This document shows positions 1,420 through 20,664 of a DNA stretch of 64,000 nucleotides, piece after piece. Under the pieces are notes generated by a model. The model made no database searches. It saw only the letters and a program-made list of their open reading frames with translations, and was not told where the DNA came from. The DNA is from Kocuria coralli (GTDB lineage: Bacteria > Actinomycetota > Actinomycetes > Actinomycetales > Micrococcaceae), in NCBI RefSeq assembly GCF_008831305.1, contig NZ_ML708612.1, positions 124,001-188,000 on the forward strand. Reading direction: 5' to 3'. Within the stretch, counting starts at the first letter, position 1; each line of letters opens with the position of its first letter. The position numbers were made by a program, and so were the translations under genes.

Positions 1420-2627
1420 CGGATCCGCTCCACCGCGGTTTTCGCAGTGGATTCCAGCTCGGCCACCAGCTCGCCGGGCAGATCCGCTGCGCGGGCGACG
1501 GCCACGGCCTGATCCGCCGATTCACGCGCCAGGGCTTCTACCGCCGCCCTGGCTCCCGAGCACTCCAGCAACTTCCTGGCGCGTTGCAGCTGCTCCGGGG
1601 ACGGATCACCGCCCCTCAGGAGGTCCAGCAGCTCGGGGCCGGCGCCGGAGCGCACGGCCTCCGCGATCAGCAGCGTGTGCTTGCCCTCCCTGAGGTCGCC
1701 GTCGGTCGACTTCCCCGTGCTCTCACCGGACCCGAAGACACCCAGGAGGTCGTCGGCCAGCTGGAAGGCCAGGCCCAGACCACGGCCGATGGCACCCAGC
1801 TGCCGGACCTGGTCGGACGGCGCGCCCATCAGGATCGCCCCCGCTTTCAGGGGAGCTTCGAAGGAGTACACCGAGGTCTTCAGCTGCGTGGCCGACAGCA
1901 CGGATCCCACCGGTGGAACGTCGACTCCGAGGGCGTTCTCGATGTCCAGGAGCTCTCCCGCGGCGGAGGCGAAGACGGCCTCGTCGAGCAGTGCCAGCAC
2001 GGGGTCCAGCACATCCGCCGGCAGCCCCGCCGTGGCCACGAGCCGGTGAGCCCCTGCCAGGGCGAGGTCGCCGGCGATGATCGCGACGCTGCGCCCGTGG
2101 TGCTCGGCCCGCTCGGGCGGGCTCCCCGCTCCGAGCGCCTCGGACTGCGCTGCGGCATGCAGGGTGGGCTCATGCCGCCGGACGTCGTCGCGGTCGATGA
2201 CATCGTCGTGGATGATCAGAGCCGTATGCAGCAGCTCGAAGGCCGCCCCCACGGCGCCGACGGCCTGCCACGGAGAAGGCGGGAAAGCCGGGCTTGCGCG
2301 ATCGTCATCGTCCGCGCCGCGTTGCCCGGAGTAGGCCCGCGCGGTCATCTGCACCAGAGCGGGCCGCAGTCGTTTGCCGCCGGCGGTGAGTCGGGCGATC
2401 TCCTCCCACAGGTGCGCGAACCGCGGTGACAGCGTGATGGCCCGCTTCTGCGCATCCCGGAGGAATCCATCGAGGGCGCGGTCCGCATCGGCCGCATAGC
2501 CGGGTATGAGCGGAGCATCGGGCGGACGTCCGCCGCGAGCGGGATGACCCCCTGAGTTCGCCGGATACGACGTCGACGTGTCTGTCGTCGCTGTGGTGGG
2601 AGAGGCGGCTGTGGTCACGGAATCCAT
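1416..2627 (-). CDS. crtE: Polyprenyl synthetase (geranylgeranyl diphosphate synthase type)
   Basis: 403 aa. It is a trans-isoprenyl diphosphate synthase that makes the C20 substrate for CrtB. The first Asp-rich motif is IIHDDVIDRDD, and the second is LAFQLADDLLGVFG followed by GKSTDGDLREGK. The first 35 residues are low-complexity (Thr/Ser/Pro) and outside the domain. No Shine-Dalgarno sequence precedes the ATG at 2627. Instead a TANNNT -10 element ends 6 nt upstream, suggesting a leaderless transcript that starts at the ATG. It is the first gene of the crt operon. The exact chain length of the product is inferred from the neighbourhood, not from a diagnostic residue. Confidence 0.92.
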   Translation of the reverse strand: MDSVTTAASPTTATTDTSTSYPANSGGHPARGGRPPDAPLIPGYAADADRALDGFLRDAQKRAITLSPRFAHLWEEIARLTAGGKRLRPALVQMTARAYSGQRGADDDDRASPAFPPSPWQAVGAVGAAFELLHTALIIHDDVIDRDDVRRHEPTLHAAAQSEALGAGSPPERAEHHGRSVAIIAGDLALAGAHRLVATAGLPADVLDPVLALLDEAVFASAAGELLDIENALGVDVPPVGSVLSATQLKTSVYSFEAPLKAGAILMGAPSDQVRQLGAIGRGLGLAFQLADDLLGVFGSGESTGKSTDGDLREGKHTLLIAEAVRSGAGPELLDLLRGGDPSPEQLQRARKLLECSGARAAVEALARESADQAVAVARAADLPGELVAELESTAKTAVERIR

Positions 2628-2633
2628 TGCATC

Positions 2634-2660
2634 ACACTATTTCGGAATTCGAAATATCAA
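2634..2660 (-). promoter_or_regulatory. Leaderless crtE promoter with embedded MarR-type operator
   Basis: Read on the minus strand, TTGATA (2660-2655) and TAGTGT (2639-2634) are separated by 15 nt, and the crtE ATG follows the -10 element after 6 nt. A perfect 7-bp inverted repeat, TATTTCG-GAATT-CGAAATA (2638-2656), fills the spacer and overlaps both hexamers. A dimer bound here would block RNA polymerase. The MarR-type protein encoded immediately upstream is the obvious candidate ligand, by analogy with MarR-type CrtR control of carotenoid operons. That link is inferred. Confidence 0.7.
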
Positions 2661-2724
2661 CACGGATTGGAACCGCAGCGGCCTCCGGACGGCACCCGGC
2701 CTTCGCCGGGCCGGCCGCTGCGGA

Positions 2725-3327
2725 TCAGGTCGCGTCGTCTCCCAGGTCCGGGGCGGGAGGGGTCACCCGCTGGGCTCGCTGGATGGCGGCGGTCAGCTCG
2801 GGGATCCTGCGGCGCAGCACGTCGAGTTCGGCGTCGTCCCAGGATTCGAACTCCCGCAGCAGCTCGTCGACCATGGGGGTGAACATGGCGCGTCCCGTGG
2901 CAGCCGCACTGGGGGTGGCGCCCAGGAGGACCTCCCGGCGGTCCCCGGTGTCCGATTGCCGCTCCAGATGTCCCCGGTTGGCCAGGCGATCGATCACCGC
3001 GGTGGCCGCGGACGCGCTGATCACCAGGCGACGGGCCACGTCCCCGGCCCTCAGGGGAGCACCCCGTCGCTGGCCCTGCATCACCTCGGTCAAGGCGTTG
3101 ACATCGCTGTGCGCCAGCCCGTAGGCCTTCCTGGCCGTGTCGGCGTACCGGCTCGATTCGATGGTGAAGTTCTGCAGGATCAGCATCAGATCATGACCAC
3201 GACCGCGCGGCTTGCGCTGCCCTCTCACCCCGGCAGCAGGAGGCTCCTGGTCACGCACCTCGGCCACGGGTCTGGGCTCACGCGAGTCGGTCATCCCCCG
3301 ATCATAATCGGGCGGAGCGGGGAGCAT
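2725..3327 (-). CDS. MarR-family transcriptional regulator (probable crt regulator)
   Basis: Up to 200 aa; a shorter start at 3294 would give 189 aa. The winged-helix MarR core is visible: LAHSDVNALTEVMQG, then RAGDVARRLVISASAATAVIDRLANRGHLERQSDTGDRR, the usual HTH plus wing with a DxxDRR-like motif. The C-terminal helix LDVLRRRIPELTAAIQRAQ would form the dimer interface. It lies directly upstream of crtE on the same strand, 97 nt away, with a palindrome in the gap. It is therefore the likely regulator of the carotenoid operon. The N-terminus is uncertain: the 3327 ATG has a G-rich stretch at usable spacing, whereas at 3294 the G-run touches the codon. Confidence 0.85.
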   Translation of the reverse strand: MLPAPPDYDRGMTDSREPRPVAEVRDQEPPAAGVRGQRKPRGRGHDLMLILQNFTIESSRYADTARKAYGLAHSDVNALTEVMQGQRRGAPLRAGDVARRLVISASAATAVIDRLANRGHLERQSDTGDRREVLLGATPSAAATGRAMFTPMVDELLREFESWDDAELDVLRRRIPELTAAIQRAQRVTPPAPDLGDDAT

Positions 3328-3356
3328 CCCATGCCCCCGAGCCGGGCGATGATTGA

Positions 3357-3950
3357 ATGAACGGCATGAACGCCAACTTCACCCGGCTGTTCCGCGCGGC
3401 CTTCTCGGCCTACCGGCAAGCCAAGAAGCAGCAAGTACGAACCGCCGGCCGGAACCCGCGAGGGAAGGCCCCTGGTGGAGGCCGTCCGACGGCGACCAGC
3501 ACCACGGCCGAACCCGCCGGCTCACCGTCGAGCACCCCGTCCGCAGGCTCCACGCCGGCCCAGGCCTACCCCGGGGACTACACGGGACCCGTGGACGCCG
3601 TCTACGATCCCCACCCCGACGGCAGGGCCGATCCCGGGGAGATCGTGTGGACCTGGGTGCCGTACCAGGAGGACCACTCGCGGGGGAAGGACCGCCCGGT
3701 GCTCATCGTCGGACGCAACGGCGCCTATCTCCTGGCCTTGATGCTGACCTCCAAGGACCACGCCAACGCCGACGCGCACGATGACGCCTACGTGGACATC
3801 GGCACGGGCGACTGGGACTCGCGTCGTCGCCCGTCCGAGGTGCGAGTGGACCGGGTGGTGCAGGTCCGGGAACGAGACGTACGGCGGGAGGGCGCTGTCC
3901 TTGAGCGTGATCGATTTAACGCAGTGCTCGCACGACTCGACCGGCGCTGA
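3357..3950 (+). CDS. PemK/MazF-type toxin-domain protein
   Basis: 197 aa. The C-terminal ~115 residues carry the PemK/MazF fold signature, with GEIVWTWVPYQEDHSRGKDRPVLIVGR resembling the conserved G-x-V-W / K-x-RPVLVV strand region. Family members are mRNA-cleaving toxins or relatives. The first ~75 residues are basic and then Pro/Ser/Thr-rich, possibly a linker. No antitoxin-like ORF adjoins it: the neighbour on one side is divergent marR and on the other rpsT. A solitary version beside rpsT occurs in other Micrococcales as far as I recall, so a housekeeping role rather than an active toxin-antitoxin pair is possible. ATG 3366 is an alternative start. Confidence 0.75.
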   Translation: MNGMNANFTRLFRAAFSAYRQAKKQQVRTAGRNPRGKAPGGGRPTATSTTAEPAGSPSSTPSAGSTPAQAYPGDYTGPVDAVYDPHPDGRADPGEIVWTWVPYQEDHSRGKDRPVLIVGRNGAYLLALMLTSKDHANADAHDDAYVDIGTGDWDSRRRPSEVRVDRVVQVRERDVRREGAVLERDRFNAVLARLDRR

Positions 3951-4117
3951 GCACCCGCGAGAGCAGGTTTCTGCTAAGCTTTTTCGCTGTGTGTCCGCGC
4001 TGATCGCCGGGCACTGCGGATAGGGCGCCAGCGAGCATCCCCACTCTCACGTCTCAGTCGGCGAAACCGTCCGTTTGCCCTCACTGACCGATCAACGCTC
4101 ACGTCAAAGGAGTATCT

Positions 4118-4381
4118 GTGGCAAATATCAAGTCCCAGAAGAAGCGCATTCTGACCAACGAGAAGGCTCGTCTGCGCAACAACGCCTACAAGTCCGAGCT
4201 GAAGACCTACGTGCGTCGCCTCGACTCCGCGATCGCCGCCGGCGACAAGGATGCGGCTGCCACCGCGCTGCGCGAGGTCTCCCGCAAGTACGACAAGGCC
4301 GTGACCAAGGGCGTTCTGCACAAGAACAACGCCGCCAACAAGAAGTCCGGTCTGGCTGCCCGGGTCAACGACATGGCCTGA
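4118..4381 (+). CDS. rpsT: 30S ribosomal protein S20
   Basis: 87 aa, the normal length for bS20. The sequence begins [20 protein letters not shown] and is rich in Lys/Arg/Ala, with the helical RNA-binding pattern of S20; it ends [12 protein letters not shown]. It binds 16S rRNA early in 30S assembly. The start is GTG at 4118, fixed by a strong ribosome binding site AAAGGAG (4106-4112) five nucleotides upstream. A TANNNT-type -10 (TAAGCT, 3975-3980) lies about 140 nt upstream, which would leave a long leader. It is convergent with holA, the usual actinobacterial arrangement. Confidence 0.98.
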
Positions 4382-4397
4382 GTCACCAGCTGACTCG

Positions 4398-4441
4398 TAC
4401 GTCAGGGCCGCGCATCCGCAGGGATGCGCGGCCCTGACGTA
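4398..4441. terminator. Bidirectional terminator hairpin between rpsT and holA
   Basis: A perfect 20-bp inverted repeat (arms 4398-4417 and 4422-4441) with a 4-nt loop lies 17 nt after the rpsT stop and before the convergent holA 3' end. The stem is GC-rich; there is no long T-tract, as is common in high-GC actinobacteria. It can serve both converging genes. Confidence 0.85.
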
Positions 4442-4524
4442 TATCCGGTGCACATTCGGCCGGGGCTGTCCCAGCACTCAGGCCCAGTACTCAGGCCCGG
4501 TACTCAGGCGCTGTACTCAGGCGC

Positions 4525-5532
4525 TTAGATCGCGCGCCTGCCAGAGAGCGCGATCGTGGTGATGGCCCGCTCCACGGCGTAGGCGGCATCCCGAGACTCC
4601 CCCTTGACCTGGGCATCGGCATCCGCCAGGGCGCGCAGAGCGGCCACCAGGTCGGCCTGGTCGAAACGGCGGGCCTCCTTCTGCGCGCGTTCGATCTGCC
4701 AGGGCGCGCCACCCACCTGCCCCGCGAGCTGATGAGCGGACCCGCGTGCGCCGTGGACGGCGGCCGTCAGACGCACCTTGGCCGCCAGGGCCGCCACCAT
4801 GGGCACGGGGTCGGTGCCCGTGTCGAGCGCATGGCGCCACAGTTTGAGAGCGGCTTCCGGCCGCCCCGCCAGGGCGGCATCGGCGACCTTGAAGGCGGTG
4901 GCTTCCACCCTGCCGCCGTAGTAGGTCTCCACCTCGTCATAGGTGATGTGCTCGGGTCCGTCGGACAGGAGCTGGGCGCAGGCGGAGGCCAGTTCCGCCG
5001 TCGAGGTGCCGACGGCCTCCGTCAGGGCTCGGGCGGCGTCGGGATCGATGCCGCGCCCGTGGACGCGGAACTCGTGCCGGACGAAATCCACTTTGTCCCG
5101 GTCGTTCTTGAGGGGCGAGCAGTCGACCACCACGGCCGCGGCCTTCAAGGCGTCCAGCAGTTTCTTGCCGCGGGTCCCCCCGCTGTGGGAGAAGACCACG
5201 ACGACGTCGGGGTCCGGCTGCTGGACGTAGGCCAGCGCGTCCGCGAGCAGGTCTTCGTTCATCTGCGCCAGGTCCTCGACCACGATGACCTTGGCATCGT
5301 CGAAGAGCGAAGGGCTGGCCACCACGCCGAGCTGGCCCGCGCCGTAGGTCGCAGCGTCGATCCGGGTGAACTCGACTCCCCCGTTCGCTTCCTTGACCAG
5401 GCGCCGGATCCGGTCGACCGCACGGGCGGCCAGGTAGCTCTCCTTGCCGGTGAGCAGGATCAGCGGCGAGGGCTCGACCTCGCGCCAGCTGGTTCCGGGG
5501 TCGGCGGGAGCGGGGCGCTTGCGTGGTGGCAT
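4525..5532 (-). CDS. holA: DNA polymerase III, delta subunit
   Basis: 335 aa, typical for HolA/YqeN. It is part of the clamp loader that opens the beta clamp during replication. Visible family features are PLILLTGKESYLAARAVDRI at the N-terminus, the ATPase-like strand VIVVEDLAQMNEDLLADALAYVQQ, DVVVVFSHSGG, and a C-terminal helical domain ending ALADADAQVKGESRDAAYAVERAI. The conserved actinobacterial neighbour upstream is comEC. Here comEC lies 26.5 kb away, which defines the island described in the findings. The start ATG at 5532 begins MPPRKRPAPADPGTSW. Confidence 0.95.
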   Translation of the reverse strand: MPPRKRPAPADPGTSWREVEPSPLILLTGKESYLAARAVDRIRRLVKEANGGVEFTRIDAATYGAGQLGVVASPSLFDDAKVIVVEDLAQMNEDLLADALAYVQQPDPDVVVVFSHSGGTRGKKLLDALKAAAVVVDCSPLKNDRDKVDFVRHEFRVHGRGIDPDAARALTEAVGTSTAELASACAQLLSDGPEHITYDEVETYYGGRVEATAFKVADAALAGRPEAALKLWRHALDTGTDPVPMVAALAAKVRLTAAVHGARGSAHQLAGQVGGAPWQIERAQKEARRFDQADLVAALRALADADAQVKGESRDAAYAVERAITTIALSGRRAI

Positions 5533-15746: not shown

Positions 15747-15995
15747 CGGTCACTCCTTCTCAATGAAGAAGTGACGGCCCGTTCGTTCCGCGTGTGCTCG
15801 TGCGCCCGTCGAGGATCATCGCCTCCGGCGTGACGCACGTTTTTACTTCCAGTGGTGCCAGGCTACACCGGCGCGAGGGCCCCGGCCGTTATCCCTCAGC
15901 GATCAGGTGCCACAAGCCAGCTGCTGCAGCGCGTCAGGTACCCGATCTCGGCCACCTGAGATACTGGAGGCATGGAGCAGGGGGAGGCTGGGCGC

Positions 15996-17033
15996 ATGCT
16001 CGACGGACCGCGCGGGCGGAGACTCTGCCTGGAGCTGGCCCGGTCGCTGTCCTCGGAGGCGGGATCATTGATCTCGCGCCTAGGGTTCGAGCTCGACCCG
16101 GACGCCGGCACTTCGAGGATCAGCATGACCGCGCAATTCGGCCACGGTGTCGGCGATGCGCACCCGGGCCCGACGCCGTCTATCCCGGTCCTTGTCTCAG
16201 CGATCGACTGCCTTCACGCGGAGGCGCTGGCGGAGGGCATCGTGCACGCGGCGTTCTCCGCCGCAGTCGGCGCGGCGCGGTACTGGCAGGATCCCGACGG
16301 TGAGGATGTGCTCGCCGCCCATCCCGACGTGCGAGCGGTCCTCTGGCCGCTCGCACTGCACGTCTCGACGATGTCGGAGCTCGGCTGGTGGTACGCCAGT
16401 AGCCGCCCCGATCAGTGGCTCATCGACTGGGAGAACCCCGGATATCCGGCACCCGCCGAACGCCCAGACCTCGACACGTGGGCCATGGGGATCCGCGCCG
16501 AGGAAGAGCGATCGCAGCGCGATCGGCCGCGCGACCCGAGTGCGGCCTACTCCGGTCCCTGGTGGTCGGCGCCGGTCGTCTCACGGCGCTCCACAGCCGG
16601 GCGGATTCCCGAGGCATTCGACCTGGTCGAAGACGACTTCGGCTGGGACGCAGCGACGGTCACGCCGTCGTCCGCGCCCGAGCAGGTCATCGAGATCCGT
16701 ACTGCCGGGGATTGGGTAGATCTATGCCGGGCGCATCCGATCGAGGTGACTGCCTCGCGCCGTCACGACTGGTATCGCACCACGGGCATCGACAGCCGCT
16801 GGGTCATCCCCGACTGGAGCGCCATCGCGGGTCAGGCCGAGGGCGTACATCTCACCGCGGCGGCGTACCTCGAGCTCGCAGGACGCGCCCTACCTGTGGA
16901 TGACGGCCTCGCCACGGTTATCGCGGGATGGGATCCGGATGCGACGTTCTGGCTGCAAGATGATCCCGTCACGGCAGGACCCGGCATCCGGTGGGTGCGC
17001 GATAGGGACAGTGAGAGCTGGACGATTGACTGA
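15996..17033 (+). CDS. Hypothetical protein (345 aa), no recognised family
   Basis: Start ATG 15996 is preferred because GGGGAGG lies eight nucleotides upstream; ATG 15972 has its ribosome site too close. The protein is soluble, Trp-rich and acidic: ARYWQDPDGEDVL, ALHVSTMSELGWWYASSRPDQWLIDWENPGYP, GPWWSAPVVSR, and HDWYRTTGIDSRWVIPDWSAIA. There is no signal peptide, membrane segment or nucleotide-binding motif. It lies between the broken MFS gene and the serine recombinase, both apparently separately transcribed. I cannot assign a function. Confidence 0.75.
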   Translation: MLDGPRGRRLCLELARSLSSEAGSLISRLGFELDPDAGTSRISMTAQFGHGVGDAHPGPTPSIPVLVSAIDCLHAEALAEGIVHAAFSAAVGAARYWQDPDGEDVLAAHPDVRAVLWPLALHVSTMSELGWWYASSRPDQWLIDWENPGYPAPAERPDLDTWAMGIRAEEERSQRDRPRDPSAAYSGPWWSAPVVSRRSTAGRIPEAFDLVEDDFGWDAATVTPSSAPEQVIEIRTAGDWVDLCRAHPIEVTASRRHDWYRTTGIDSRWVIPDWSAIAGQAEGVHLTAAAYLELAGRALPVDDGLATVIAGWDPDATFWLQDDPVTAGPGIRWVRDRDSESWTID

Positions 17034-17102: not shown

Positions 17103-18698
17103 ATGACTCCCGCGACCCCGACCCGCACGACCACACCAGCCGCCAGCCCGAGCACTGCCGCTCAGCCGACGCGGGCGGTGCTGTACGTCCGTATCAGTGA
17201 CGACCCCGAGGGCTTGGAGAAAGGGGTGGAGCGACAGGAGGCCGACTGCCGCGCCTACGCCGAATCCCTCGGCTACGAAGTGGTGGAGGTGTTCAGAGAG
17301 AACGACACCTCGGCGTTCAAGCAGCGCACCATCACTCTCCCCACCGGGGAGAAAGTCCGCCGCGTCGTCCGCCCCAGGTTCCGTGCCCTGCTGTCGTTCC
17401 TGGCTCGTCGCGGTGCGGAGGCGATGATCGCCTACGACCTCGACCGCGCCGTGCGCGACCCCCGCGATCTGGAAGACCTGATCGACGCCAAGGTGCTCTA
17501 CGGGTTCCGGGTGCTTTCGACCACCGGGAGCCTGCGCTTAGACAACGACTCGGATATCGCGATGGCGCGGGTGCTGGTGGCGATGGCGAACAAGTCCAGC
17601 GCGGACACCGCCCGCCGTGTCGCCAGGGCGTCGAAGCAGCAGGCCATCGACGGCAAGTGGCACGGTGGCCGCGCCCCCTACGGCTACCGGATGGGCGACT
17701 CCACCCTGTACGTGATCCCCGAGCACGCCGCCCTGATCCGCGAGGCTGCCGACCGCGTGCTTGCGGGTGAGAGCCTGTATGTCATCACGCGGACATGGAA
17801 CGAGCGCGGAGAGCGCACCGGCAACGGTGTGCAGTGGTCGGAAAAGGCGCTGGCTCAGGTGCTGCGCAACCCGGCGACCAAAGGGGTGCGCATCTATCGC
17901 CCCACGTTGCCGGATGGCAGGAGTGCTGAGGTGCCGGAGGTGGTGACTGAGGGCAACTGGTCTGCGATCCTTGATGCGGAGCGGTGGCAGGAGGTCGTGG
18001 ACGTGCTCGACGCACGCCGGGCGCGGCGGACGACCTGGCCGGGCACCGTGAAGCGGGTGCACCCGTTCTCCGGGCTGATTCGGTGCGCGAACTGCGGTAC
18101 GGCGATGCGCAAGCAAGGCCCGCAGTACATCTGCGTGAACTACCAGCGCTCGATCTGCTCCCGCTCCATCAACGCCCGCGAGGTCACGGCCCTGATCGAG
18201 GAGGCGGTGCTGAGTGTGTTCTCGCGGATCGCGTTGGCTCCGGAACAGATGCCGTCACGTACCGCCGAGACGGACGGGGAACGCGAAGCCTTGGCGGAGG
18301 GGCTGGAGTCTGACCGAGAAGCGCTGGAACGCCTCGATGACGACCACTACGACGGGATCATCGACCGGGCCACCTGGATGCGGCAGCGCACCCGGCTCAT
18401 CGAGCGCATCCGTACTCGGCAGCACGACTACCAGCAGCGCCTGGCCCGCATCCCCGTCGTAGACGTGAGCCTTGACGTGAGCACGGTCGCGTCCGAGTGG
18501 GAGGGCAGGAGCGCGACCTGGCAACATGAGGCGACGCGGCTGGTGCTGGACACGGTGCTCATCCACGCCCACCCCACAGGCGTGCCCGCCGTCGTGCCCA
18601 AGCGCCGAGGCGACACCAAAGAGTCGTACCGGGCCAGGTTGCGGGCGCACCGCAACGATCTACTGGCCCGCAGAGTCGAGTTCATCTGGCACGCCTGA
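17103..18698 (+). CDS. Large serine recombinase (integrase)
   Basis: 531 aa. The resolvase catalytic domain starts at AVLYVRISDDPEG with the nucleophile Ser32, followed by VERQEADCRAYAESLGY, the conserved Arg region IAYDLDRAVRDPRDLEDLI, and ANKSSADTARRVARASKQQA. The recombinase domain begins GGRAPYGYRMGD. A zinc ribbon follows (CANCGTAM ... YICVNYQRSICSRSI, about residues 328-353), then a coiled-coil-like segment. This is the layout of phage/ICE integrases that recombine attP with attB. It is the likely integration enzyme of the surrounding element. GAGG precedes the ATG by about eight nucleotides. Confidence 0.93.
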   Translation: MTPATPTRTTTPAASPSTAAQPTRAVLYVRISDDPEGLEKGVERQEADCRAYAESLGYEVVEVFRENDTSAFKQRTITLPTGEKVRRVVRPRFRALLSFLARRGAEAMIAYDLDRAVRDPRDLEDLIDAKVLYGFRVLSTTGSLRLDNDSDIAMARVLVAMANKSSADTARRVARASKQQAIDGKWHGGRAPYGYRMGDSTLYVIPEHAALIREAADRVLAGESLYVITRTWNERGERTGNGVQWSEKALAQVLRNPATKGVRIYRPTLPDGRSAEVPEVVTEGNWSAILDAERWQEVVDVLDARRARRTTWPGTVKRVHPFSGLIRCANCGTAMRKQGPQYICVNYQRSICSRSINAREVTALIEEAVLSVFSRIALAPEQMPSRTAETDGEREALAEGLESDREALERLDDDHYDGIIDRATWMRQRTRLIERIRTRQHDYQQRLARIPVVDVSLDVSTVASEWEGRSATWQHEATRLVLDTVLIHAHPTGVPAVVPKRRGDTKESYRARLRAHRNDLLARRVEFIWHA

Positions 18699-18881
18699 CC
18701 CCTCGGACGGTCTCGGCAGCCCGCACAAACCGCGCAGTCGCTGGCGTATTCGAGGGTCGGCGATCACGGGCGGCAGACCCTGCGCCTCCCGGCTACGCCG
18801 CGCCAGGAGCGCCCCCAGCGGCTCGGAGGCATCGCCTGGCGTGGGTGGTTCGGTCGTGGTGGTGTGCTGTCGAGTCGTCAT
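18660..18881 (-). CDS. Small hypothetical protein (73 aa) overlapping recombinase 3' end
   Basis: From ATG 18881 the frame encodes MTTRQHTTTTEPPTPGDASE, then LGALLARRSREAQGLPPVIADPRIRQRLRGLCGLP. The Arg-rich central part looks like a real protein rather than a shadow, because the tail extends only 39 nt into the recombinase gene on the opposite strand. No ribosome binding site is visible. Candidate minus-strand -10 elements (TATAGT, 18944-18939) lie upstream, next to the TGTGGA/TCCACA palindrome. The function is unknown. Confidence 0.4.
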   Translation of the reverse strand: MTTRQHTTTTEPPTPGDASEPLGALLARRSREAQGLPPVIADPRIRQRLRGLCGLPRPSEGSGVPDELDSAGQ

Positions 18882-18944
18882 GGAGGTCAGGTACGACCGA
18901 GTGACCACAACATCTAGTAGTTCGGGCGAAGTTGAGGTACTATA

Positions 18945-18960
18945 TGTGGACTTATCCACA
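18945..18960. promoter_or_regulatory. Perfect DnaA box within TGTGGA-CTTA-TCCACA palindrome
   Basis: TTATCCACA (18952-18960) is an exact consensus DnaA box, and with the upstream TGTGGA it forms a 6-bp inverted repeat with a 4-nt centre. It lies 40 nt before the 27-nt palindrome array. It could be a replication-initiator or regulator site of the mobile element. A single box does not prove an origin. Confidence 0.5.
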
Positions 18961-18999
18961 GGGAGAACGGCCAGCACGAGCCACACAGTGACGCTACCC

Positions 19000-19560
19000 A
19001 CGGGCGTGCCGATTCGGCACCACCGTGAACCACCGAGGTCAGCGCCTCACGGCACCGTCACCGTGGCGGCACCGCGAGGGAGCACGGATCGGTAAAACCC
19101 CAGGTCACACGGTGGGGCCAATTTGCCACCACCGTCAGGAGTGGCGACGGGGCCGGAAATTTTCCACCCCCATTGTCCGGCGCGAGTCCTAGTCCTCGAC
19201 TCGAACGGGGGTGCACATTTTGCACCCCCGTGGATGCCGGAAGAAGCCGGAGGCGGCACGGGGGTGCCAGCGTCGCACCCCCGTCACCGCAGGCCGACGG
19301 AGTGCAACGCCTGGTCGCACGGCGCGGGAAGTTTTCTCCCACCGTCATCGGCAGGCTCAGGCTGAACGGGGCCGCAAGATTTGCGGCCCCGTTGACCACC
19401 CGCCACGCACGAAAGTCCAGGTGGCACGGTTCCGGCAAATTGCCGCCACCGTGCTCCACGTGCTGACGGGCGAAGCCTCTGGTGGCGCGGTGCCGTGGAA
19501 TCGGCGGAACCCTGCGCGACCGGCCCGAGGGTGACGGTGGTGCAAATTTTGCACGACCGT
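19000..19560. repeat. Array of about ten 27-nt palindromes (ACGG-N19-CCGT)
   Basis: Nine clear units, each exactly 27 nt, start at 19000, 19049 (degenerate), 19109, 19147, 19205, 19258, 19319, 19366, 19426 and 19534, with a further weak candidate at 19487. All begin ACGG and end CCGT (19147 ends CCAT, 19049 ends CCGC). The arms differ in sequence between units but stay complementary: for example 19205 has an 11-bp perfect stem, 19366 a 12-bp stem, and 19534 a 12-bp stem with one mismatch that extends to 16 bp with flanking bases. The centres are often AAATTTT. Start-to-start spacing is 38-61 nt and the spacers are not alike. This 750-nt stretch (18882-19632) has no convincing gene. It could be an iteron-like or centromere-like binding array, or a chain of RNA/ssDNA hairpins. 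Confidence 0.85.
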
Positions 19561-19632
19561 CACCGGCGCGACCAGCCACCAGCAGGGCGCGGCGATGCCG
19601 CCGCTTGGCCTGCTGTGGCGCGCTTCGCGTGG

Positions 19633-20664
19633 TCATGGTCGGTGCCTGTTCTCGGGGCGTGACGGATGGGTCTCACCGGGTAGGTGCGCACCGCTTCCCA
19701 CAATGGTGTTCGGGAGTCCGTAGAGGCGGTACCGGCCCGGCGTGACACCGACGTGCCGGACGAACATCTCCGATGCCTGGTTGCGTGACCAGCCCACCCG
19801 ATGCGCGGCGGCATCCACAGTCAGGTTCTCCTCACGCAGCAGCCGCGCCATCGCCTCCACCCGCAGCCGCCCGAGATACGCGCAGGGAGTCTGGCCGTAG
19901 GCGATGGAGAACACGCGCACGAGCTGCTTCGGGGACAGATGCACCATCTCCGCCAGATCGCTCAGCAGCCAGCGGCGGGCGATGTCGCGGCGCAGCGCGT
20001 CGCGCACTGTCAAGGCCTCGACCCGCACCGGAGCGGCGAGACGGCGGTTGCGCAGCGGCCGGGGCCGAGCCTTGGCGGACTGCGCCAGCACCTGCGACAC
20101 GGGCGTGGTCGTGAGGAACGGGCGGATCGCGTCAGCGATGAGGAACCAGAGCGCCTGCATTCGGGGGAACGATTCCGCTGGGTTGCCAGCACTGCTGAGT
20201 TCGGCCAGTTCGTCCAGCCACGGCACGAGTTCCCCGAGTCGCTGCTCTCCGATGCGAAGCACCTGCACCGGTTCCGCGAACACGGTCGCGGCAACGTCCT
20301 GCGCTTCGAGCCGATCAAGGAGCAGTGCGGTGTGTTGCCAGTAGAACAGATCGATTGCGTAGTCGGCGTCGAGATACACCGTCGTCACCGTCACCCGCGT
20401 CTCGGGTTGCGCAGCGCACGTCACGCTCGCGCCCAGCAGGGCGATGTCGCCGACATTGATCGGCTGCTGATCGAAGTCGCCTGAGAGGATGGCGGAGCCG
20501 TCACGAACGATGATGAATCTCACACAGTTGAAAGTGGTTGCTTCCCTCATCCGCCGCATGCTCTTGGTGATAGCGAGTAGCGGCTGCAGCGGCTGCCGCC
20601 GAGCCGGTTGCGCGGAACTGCGCGCTTGCCCCTCCTGTGCGGCAGGAAGCGGGACAGTGCGCAT
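19633..20664 (-). CDS. AraC-family transcriptional regulator
   Basis: 343 aa. The C-terminal ~100 residues hold two AraC helix-turn-helix motifs: RRWLLSDLAEMVHLSPKQLVRVFSIAYGQTPCAYLGRLRVEAMARLL and LTVDAAAHRVGWSRNQASEMFVRHVGVTPGRYR. The N-terminal half (FNCVRFIIVRDGSAILSGDFDQQPINVGDIALLGASVTC) is a cupin-like sensor domain. It lies 9 nt downstream of the second SDR gene and ends a TetR-SDR-SDR-AraC operon. No ribosome site is visible at ATG 20664, and internal starts at residues 36 or 39 are possible. The C-terminal 25 residues run close to the palindrome array. Confidence 0.88.
   Translation of the reverse strand: MRTVPLPAAQEGQARSSAQPARRQPLQPLLAITKSMRRMREATTFNCVRFIIVRDGSAILSGDFDQQPINVGDIALLGASVTCAAQPETRVTVTTVYLDADYAIDLFYWQHTALLLDRLEAQDVAATVFAEPVQVLRIGEQRLGELVPWLDELAELSSAGNPAESFPRMQALWFLIADAIRPFLTTTPVSQVLAQSAKARPRPLRNRRLAAPVRVEALTVRDALRRDIARRWLLSDLAEMVHLSPKQLVRVFSIAYGQTPCAYLGRLRVEAMARLLREENLTVDAAAHRVGWSRNQASEMFVRHVGVTPGRYRLYGLPNTIVGSGAHLPGETHPSRPENRHRP

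Follow-up and report, generated by a model that had tools for sequence, protein, structure and literature searches.

The sopC locus of plasmid F consists of about a dozen 43-bp inverted repeats of one wording, which are read by the plasmid's own SopB. The closest precedents for the locus described here are the parS mimics of SGI1 and the oriT mimics of staphylococci. As described in the available text of the respective reports, SGI1, an integrative mobilizable element (IME), carries parS mimics that bind ParB of IncC helper plasmids and destabilise those plasmids (PMC10954446), and a staphylococcal plasmid carries three oriT mimics of the pWBG749 family, the specificity being that of SmpO, in which a single residue can switch specificity (PMC8136818). 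Excerpts of further reports describe the ParB/Noc switch, where a few residues of the helix-turn-helix (HTH) region determine the palindrome bound (PMC7383237), BisDC of ICEclc, which includes a ParB-domain protein and acts in transcription activation and expression from Pint (PMC7423338, PMC12704722), and IMEs that time their excision through regulators of the helper (PMC5704250). ParB genes of actinobacterial ICEs appear in the available text as annotations only (PMC6579920, PMC5644110).

The window, that is, the whole 64,000-nucleotide stretch of Kocuria coralli DNA that was analysed, contains an element with its own integrase and its own relaxase, as is characteristic of an IME. The element is read here as a putative IME because a recombinase and a MobF relaxase are present, while tblastn of the window revealed no ParB-like gene and no T4SS family was found among the 19 window proteins scanned (9.2-30.2 kb). 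The same 19 proteins include no Rep-type or ParB gene. The interval from recombinase to relaxase holds the array, an AraC-type gene, two short-chain dehydrogenases and a TetR regulator. A gene of 353 aa without a Pfam match (15972-17033) lies immediately upstream of the recombinase. The main features are listed below; arms are positions 5-13 of each half, and the array and its units are given without strand.

17103 to 18698, plus strand: large serine recombinase (PF00239, PF07508, PF13408)
18952 to 18960, plus strand: DnaA box, TTATCCACA
19000 to 19560: whole array, proposed ParB-like binding sites
19000 to 19026: unit 1, strict, arms GCGTGCCGA / TGGTGCCGA
19049 to 19075: unit 2, ends CCGC, 9/13 pairs, arms CACCGTCAC / TGCCGCCAC
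19109 to 19135: unit 3, strict, arms TGGGGCCAA / TGGTGGCAA
19147 to 19173: unit 4, ends CCAT, 10/13 pairs, arms GGCCGGAAA / GGGTGGAAA
19205 to 19231: unit 5, strict, arms GGGTGCACA / GGGTGCAAA
19258 to 19284: unit 6, strict, arms GGGTGCCAG / GGGTGCGAC
19319 to 19345: unit 7, strict, arms CGCGGGAAG / TGGGAGAAA
19366 to 19392: unit 8, strict, arms GGCCGCAAG / GGCCGCAAA
19426 to 19452: unit 9, strict, arms TTCCGGCAA / TGGCGGCAA
19487 to 19513: degenerate unit, 8/13 pairs
19534 to 19560: last unit, strict, arms TGGTGCAAA / TCGTGCAAA
22493 to 26761, plus strand: MobF (TrwC) relaxase-helicase, of a TrwC type scoring lower than ICE TrwC

The array between 19000 and 19560 comprises eight strict 27-nt palindromes of the form ACGG-N19-CCGT, two with one end base altered and one degenerate unit. 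The initial annotation had counted nine to ten palindromes of exactly 27 nt; the array is real, but the strict units number eight rather than nine or ten. These (starting at 19000, 19109, 19205, 19258, 19319, 19366, 19426 and 19534) have 9-12 of 13 arm pairs, and the start-to-start spacing along the array is 49, 60, 38, 58, 53, 61, 47, 60, 61 and 47. No further place in the window outside the array combines ACGG-N19-CCGT with at least 9/13 pairs, and first-order Markov simulations of the array region (n=2,000) gave at most one such unit. The serine recombinase and DnaA box that had been placed beside the array are both present. The observation that dyad symmetry is maintained as arm sequence varies was borne out, the arms being free of uncompensated drift. 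The arms are not explained by a single conserved coding frame, since the units start in two reading frames, so that this refuting condition of the annotation does not apply. The array had also been set apart from CRISPR and simple iterons, and rightly, as its units differ from one another; neither the near-identical repeats of a CRISPR array nor the near-identical repeats of an iteron origin were found, nor a linked Rep among the 19 window proteins scanned.

Related arrays occur in other actinobacteria. A BLAST search with positions 18700-19640 matched 42 of 396 genomes of the order, and arrays or units were seen in at least nine of the 20 loci retrieved (L005, which is the window, L007, L009, L010, L011, L013, L014, L016 and L018). 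This DNA search and subsequent palindrome scans identified arrays of 9-10 units in G301, G156, G184, G341, G272 and G046, the last five nearly the same. The array is flanked by a serine recombinase and TrwC in G301 (L025), G156 (L026) and G341 (L028); only the recombinase side is seen in L029 and only the relaxase side in L027. G638, from another family of the same class, has a seven-unit array with a TrwC gene about 5 kb off, and plasmid pNAPH of Rhodococcus pyridinivorans, one of five plasmid records examined out of nine with a related relaxase, has an array between recombinase and mobF. Wherever both flanks are seen, a serine recombinase is on one side of the array and a MobF relaxase on the other. 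The DnaA box also adjoins the arrays of pNAPH (L222:14872) and G638 (L232:16690); none was found near those of L025, L026 and L028.

The initial annotation had suggested asking whether arrays co-occur with this recombinase or with MobF relaxases. Arrays do accompany related MobF relaxases but are not confined to one recombinase. The relaxases of four array elements are 60-88% identical, whereas their recombinases fall into two groups only 26-27% identical, and for this reason the array is considered to track the relaxase and not a single recombinase. No array was found at eight loci with lower-scoring TrwC (L224-L231), at a Dietzia locus (L223), or within 12 kb in the other four of the five plasmid records examined (L240-L243). 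Homologous elements lacking the array had been named as a possible refutation, and elements related to this one but short of a full array do occur: the relaxase-side remnants L240 and L241 have no unit, and the element at L187, whose recombinase and relaxase are 58% and 72% identical to those of the window, has one, at 2765 (region 2393-4823). The HTH-bearing part of the ParB-like protein described below (residues 84-216) also has a match in this element, on the minus strand at L187:3145-3516. The matching fragment might compete with helper proteins.

A single 27-bp palindrome of this kind lies within the ParB-like gene of actinobacterial ICEs, in the linker codons immediately ahead of the HTH. 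The palindrome was sought in nt 250-600 of the matched stretch at 109 loci (29 + 80; some genes are present in both of the collections used, and 92 loci are distinct by site and 120-aa core). In all 109 the best 27-nt palindrome has at least 11/13 pairs and starts at nt 322-415 in codon phase 1. L100 was left out, as its ParB-like match stops short of the site. A strict scan around 80 ICE ParB-like genes (1.44 Mb) found 78 sites in 78 loci, never two. Eighty of the 109 loci come from a named-genome scan, which confirmed at least 343 ParB-like relatives, and their genera include Tessaracoccus, Leucobacter, Arthrobacter, Microbacterium, Brevibacterium, Actinomyces, Dietzia and Nocardia. A protein search detected the gene in 36 of the 396 genomes, with 16 of its 46 places outside the locus set. 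The in-gene site is also present in more distant ParB-like relatives from a class search; two more distant relatives, L185 and L181, are without it. L181 is on a viral contig and was the only ParB-like relative, a distant one, found in viral contigs. Four differently worded units lie upstream of the site-less gene of L185 (L185:4744-4956), beside a tyrosine integrase. One contig filed under a Chthonomonadales MAG (L102) has a ParB-like gene 96% identical to the protein P0001; its assignment is likely a misbinning.

The protein possesses a ParB N-terminal domain (PF02195, E 8.7e-6), the score of 26.1 bits being slightly below the curated cut-off of 26.3. It matches TIGR00180 with 30.6 bits, under that family's cut-off, a PHROG ParB-like family at 3.6e-20 and, by profile, the solved Spo0J at 1.6e-8. 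Neighbouring genes encode ArdC, Prim-Pol, DUF2637, M23 peptidase, DUF6112 proteins, an SCO6880-family protein and a TraG/VirD4-type coupling protein; nearby matches to VirB4-like and SCO6881-like proteins fall below cut-offs. Most of the ICE genomes inspected have a high-scoring TrwC at a distance of up to roughly 75 kb on the contig that holds the gene. The element carrying the ParB-like gene is taken here for an ICE. No ParA family, and so no ParA partner, was found among the ICE genes scanned, and for this reason the palindrome is not called a partition site. The genome of the window has a second ICE ParB-like gene on contig C9 (L191:13242-14102), recorded with an internal stop, with an in-gene site of its own worded unlike that of the first resident ICE.

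The residues of the HTH predict the bases of the palindrome almost without exception. In a set of 69 representatives of 119 loci, Tyr-Lys at residues 169-170 goes with G at base 10 (27/27), whereas C stands there if the two residues are His-Thr (20/20) or Tyr-Thr (10/10). At base 8, Asp or Glu at residue 154 goes with C (33/33) and Lys154 with T (17/18); with Arg154 the base is G when residue 156 is Ser or Asp (9/9) and T when residue 156 is Arg (5/5). Base 5 is G with Glu or Asp at residue 125 (11/11) and T with Gln or Lys (55/55). At bases 11-12, CG is found when Gln174 is combined with Arg, Lys or Met at residue 171 (15/15), and AA in most cases when the two residues are Thr-Lys (46/47 and 44/47). 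Site sequence thus tracks HTH residues for the in-gene sites; for the arms of arrays it does so by shared words only.

Shared descent could cause part of this association, and changes were counted by simple parsimony on a tree of the remaining protein, omitting residues 140-148, which are mostly encoded by the palindrome itself. A change of base 10 was counted on 22 of the 136 branches; 19 of these also carry a change of residue 170 (p 1e-14) and 17 one of residue 169. Residues 216 and 230, which are outside the HTH, co-change with base 10 on eight branches each. Changes of bases 11-12 coincide with those of residues 164, 171 and 174. Six of 11 changes of base 5 coincide with residue 125 (p 0.002), although residue 138, which adjoins the site, scores higher. 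Tree support is weaker for bases 7-8, where residue 151 is best and residue 154 has p ~0.004. Site and HTH also differ together among proteins at least 90% identical to P0001 (L117, L118, L120, L124 and L125 versus L119, L123 and L147 versus L101 and others), and it looks as if site and reader have been exchanged as one cassette. An AlphaFold model, of low confidence as a whole (pTM 0.29; 23 sequences) and used for local helices only, places the code residues in or beside predicted helices 154-160 and 167-183 and a helix ending at 128. The site-encoded stretch is a disordered linker in this model, which has low confidence in 128-169.

Array units and in-gene sites share block words. Among 37 units of four distinct arrays (window, G301, G156 and pNAPH), 16 of 51 distinct arms are identical to an in-gene arm at positions 5-13, versus a mean of 4.8 and a maximum of 11 in column shuffles (n=1000). 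When outer (5-8) and inner (9-13) blocks were shuffled separately the mean rose to 14.2 and the excess of exact matches was gone, so that the matching holds for words, not for whole arms. By this count, half of the window units (5/10) match a sampled in-gene arm exactly in at least one arm. Within arrays no two units share an arm (0/156 pairs), versus 103/2346 pairs among representative in-gene sites, and perfect symmetry is found in 4/37 array units versus 77/119 in-gene sites.

Resident ICEs were also compared with the array of their own genome. For the first resident ICE, the window unit closest to its in-gene site is the last one (19534; 2 mismatches/27), and for the second it is unit 7 (4 mismatches/27); the nearest units in the other two ICE-bearing array genomes have 3 and 1 mismatches. 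For resident sites the own array is at least as near as two other arrays, but the difference is slight, and 7 of 56 distinct in-gene sites are within 2 mismatches of the window array, many as near as the resident ones. This proximity is weak evidence for matching. The ICE ParB-like gene is present in 3/7 array genomes versus 33/389 others of the order sample (p 0.019), a co-occurrence that gives weak support because the gene was undetected in 4/7 array genomes and five of the arrays are nearly the same.

Units are also found singly or in mini-arrays beside integrases. Leaving aside ParB-like genes and arrays, 11 loci have R1 hits at E<=0.001. Nine of these have an integrase or excisionase-like gene within about 400 bp; L202 and L204 are the exceptions. 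The gene is a tyrosine integrase at L182, L183, L185, L186 (partial) and L190, and a serine recombinase at L184, L187, L189 and L203. Such placement suggests that excision or transfer may be governed by sensing of a helper. Right after the tyrosine integrase gene of L183 are three units exactly 118 nt apart (L183:9569-9831), which use a single inner word (GCCAC) and three different outer ones; the 118-nt stretches are only ~50% identical to each other.

The array probably serves as a repertoire of 10-11 docking sites for ParB-like proteins of many helper ICEs. The units have the two-fold symmetry of a ParB-binding (parS-like) site and most likely serve ParB-like dimers as sites in double-stranded DNA, with dyad covariation arising from homodimers of differing specificity. 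The ICE proteins would differ in specificity (for example the P0001, TCCCGCAAA and TGCGGGAAA classes), and the IME would keep about ten wordings so that at least one fits the helper that is present. Binding of the ICE ParB-like protein to a unit may let the IME sense the helper or hitch on to it, either by timing excision or transfer or by being loaded or partitioned with the helper. The suggestion in the initial annotation of a binding array for a partition protein was right about the family, which is ParB-like, but the proteins with matching sites belong to other elements, the ICEs. The evidence leans towards a wider account, in which each ICE has its site written in the linker of its own gene next to the HTH, where it co-changes with its reader, and hitchhikers answer with keyring arrays that exploit incompatible helper families. 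The individual steps appear plausible because of the precedents of BisDC, IME excision timing, SGI1 and the oriT mimics.

It is possible, though unlikely, that the IME uses its units as decoys, soaking up the ParB-like protein to derepress or weaken the helper. The parS mimics of SGI1 provide a precedent (PMC10954446, available text), and the ICE has a single site of its own in the stretches scanned, so decoys could matter. Titration, however, needs many sites of the same wording, and the arrays offer about one site per wording, for which reason sensing or hitching is favoured. That the units are hairpins, either of ssDNA in transfer or of RNA, with covariation preserving base pairing, is highly improbable, and this reading of the initial annotation gained no support. 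Covariation is indeed strong, with 90.6% of cells paired and 76 cells changed on both sides versus 27 in shuffles, counts that, like the one for pair 13-15 below, are inflated because the units were chosen partly for symmetry (the in-gene palindrome survey is freer of this bias). However, the innermost pair 13-15, impossible in a hairpin, is kept in 31/36 units, and mismatched cells (pairs 1-12, 37 array units) show no wobble excess, with G-T at 8/54 versus A-C at 14/54; the array was not assigned to the hairpin class on these two grounds. Rfam at gathering scores finds nothing in the window, and the bases, inner ones included, are predicted by HTH residues of a DNA-binding protein.

Two further explanations assign the units to the element itself. 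The array could be its replication origin or partition centromere, in which a protein of the element would read iterons close to a DnaA box, as the fixed unit length of 27 bp and the DnaA boxes beside the arrays of the window, pNAPH and G638 might indicate. This is distinctly improbable, given the arrays that have no such box nearby, the lack of a Rep-type or ParB gene among the scanned window proteins and of a ParB-like match in the window, and the fact that units of one array differ at bases that single proteins discriminate. The units could instead serve the serine recombinase as sub-sites for recombination (res/att accessory sites), since arrays and single units adjoin integrase genes. This is highly improbable: both dissimilar recombinase groups accompany arrays, the same units occur in elements with tyrosine integrases, the dyads are odd-length, and the flanks of 14 integrase-side units, compared by eye, do not share any extension with the in-gene site. 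A repertoire of docking sites for helper proteins is the preferred reading of the array.

A literature search, with most subscription journals outside its scope, found no recognised account of the in-gene site, the code or the arrays. If the account proposed here is true, these ICEs hold a natural, readable protein-DNA recognition code of about a hundred distinct reader-site pairs, each within one gene, which would be a test bed for the evolution of DNA-binding specificity. The helper ICE suited to a given hitchhiking element would be predictable from sequence, and the escape of IMEs from dependence on a single helper would be explained.

Finally, the locus resembles several described systems in part. 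Like sopC, it is an inverted-repeat array for a ParB-type protein, but sopC has 43-bp repeats of a single wording read by its own SopB. In the ParB/Noc switch, as here, residues of the HTH region set the choice of palindrome; those are chromosome-maintenance proteins, and the available text describes neither in-gene sites nor hitchhiker arrays (PMC7383237). BisDC, as described in the excerpts cited above, likewise includes a ParB-domain protein of an ICE, though of a Pseudomonas ICE. The same limit applies to the two closest cases. The pWBG749/SmpO system also has a hitchhiker with alternative sites, each for another allele of a helper DNA-binding protein, but the protein family and sites are others, and the sites are whole oriTs, three in number versus about ten. 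SGI1 is likewise an IME bearing palindromic sites of its helper's ParB. Unlike the SGI1 case, the scanned ICE genes yielded no ParA, and the parB-like gene itself contains the site. SGI1 has two copies directed at one helper family, whereas the arrays described here have 7-11 units of different wording.
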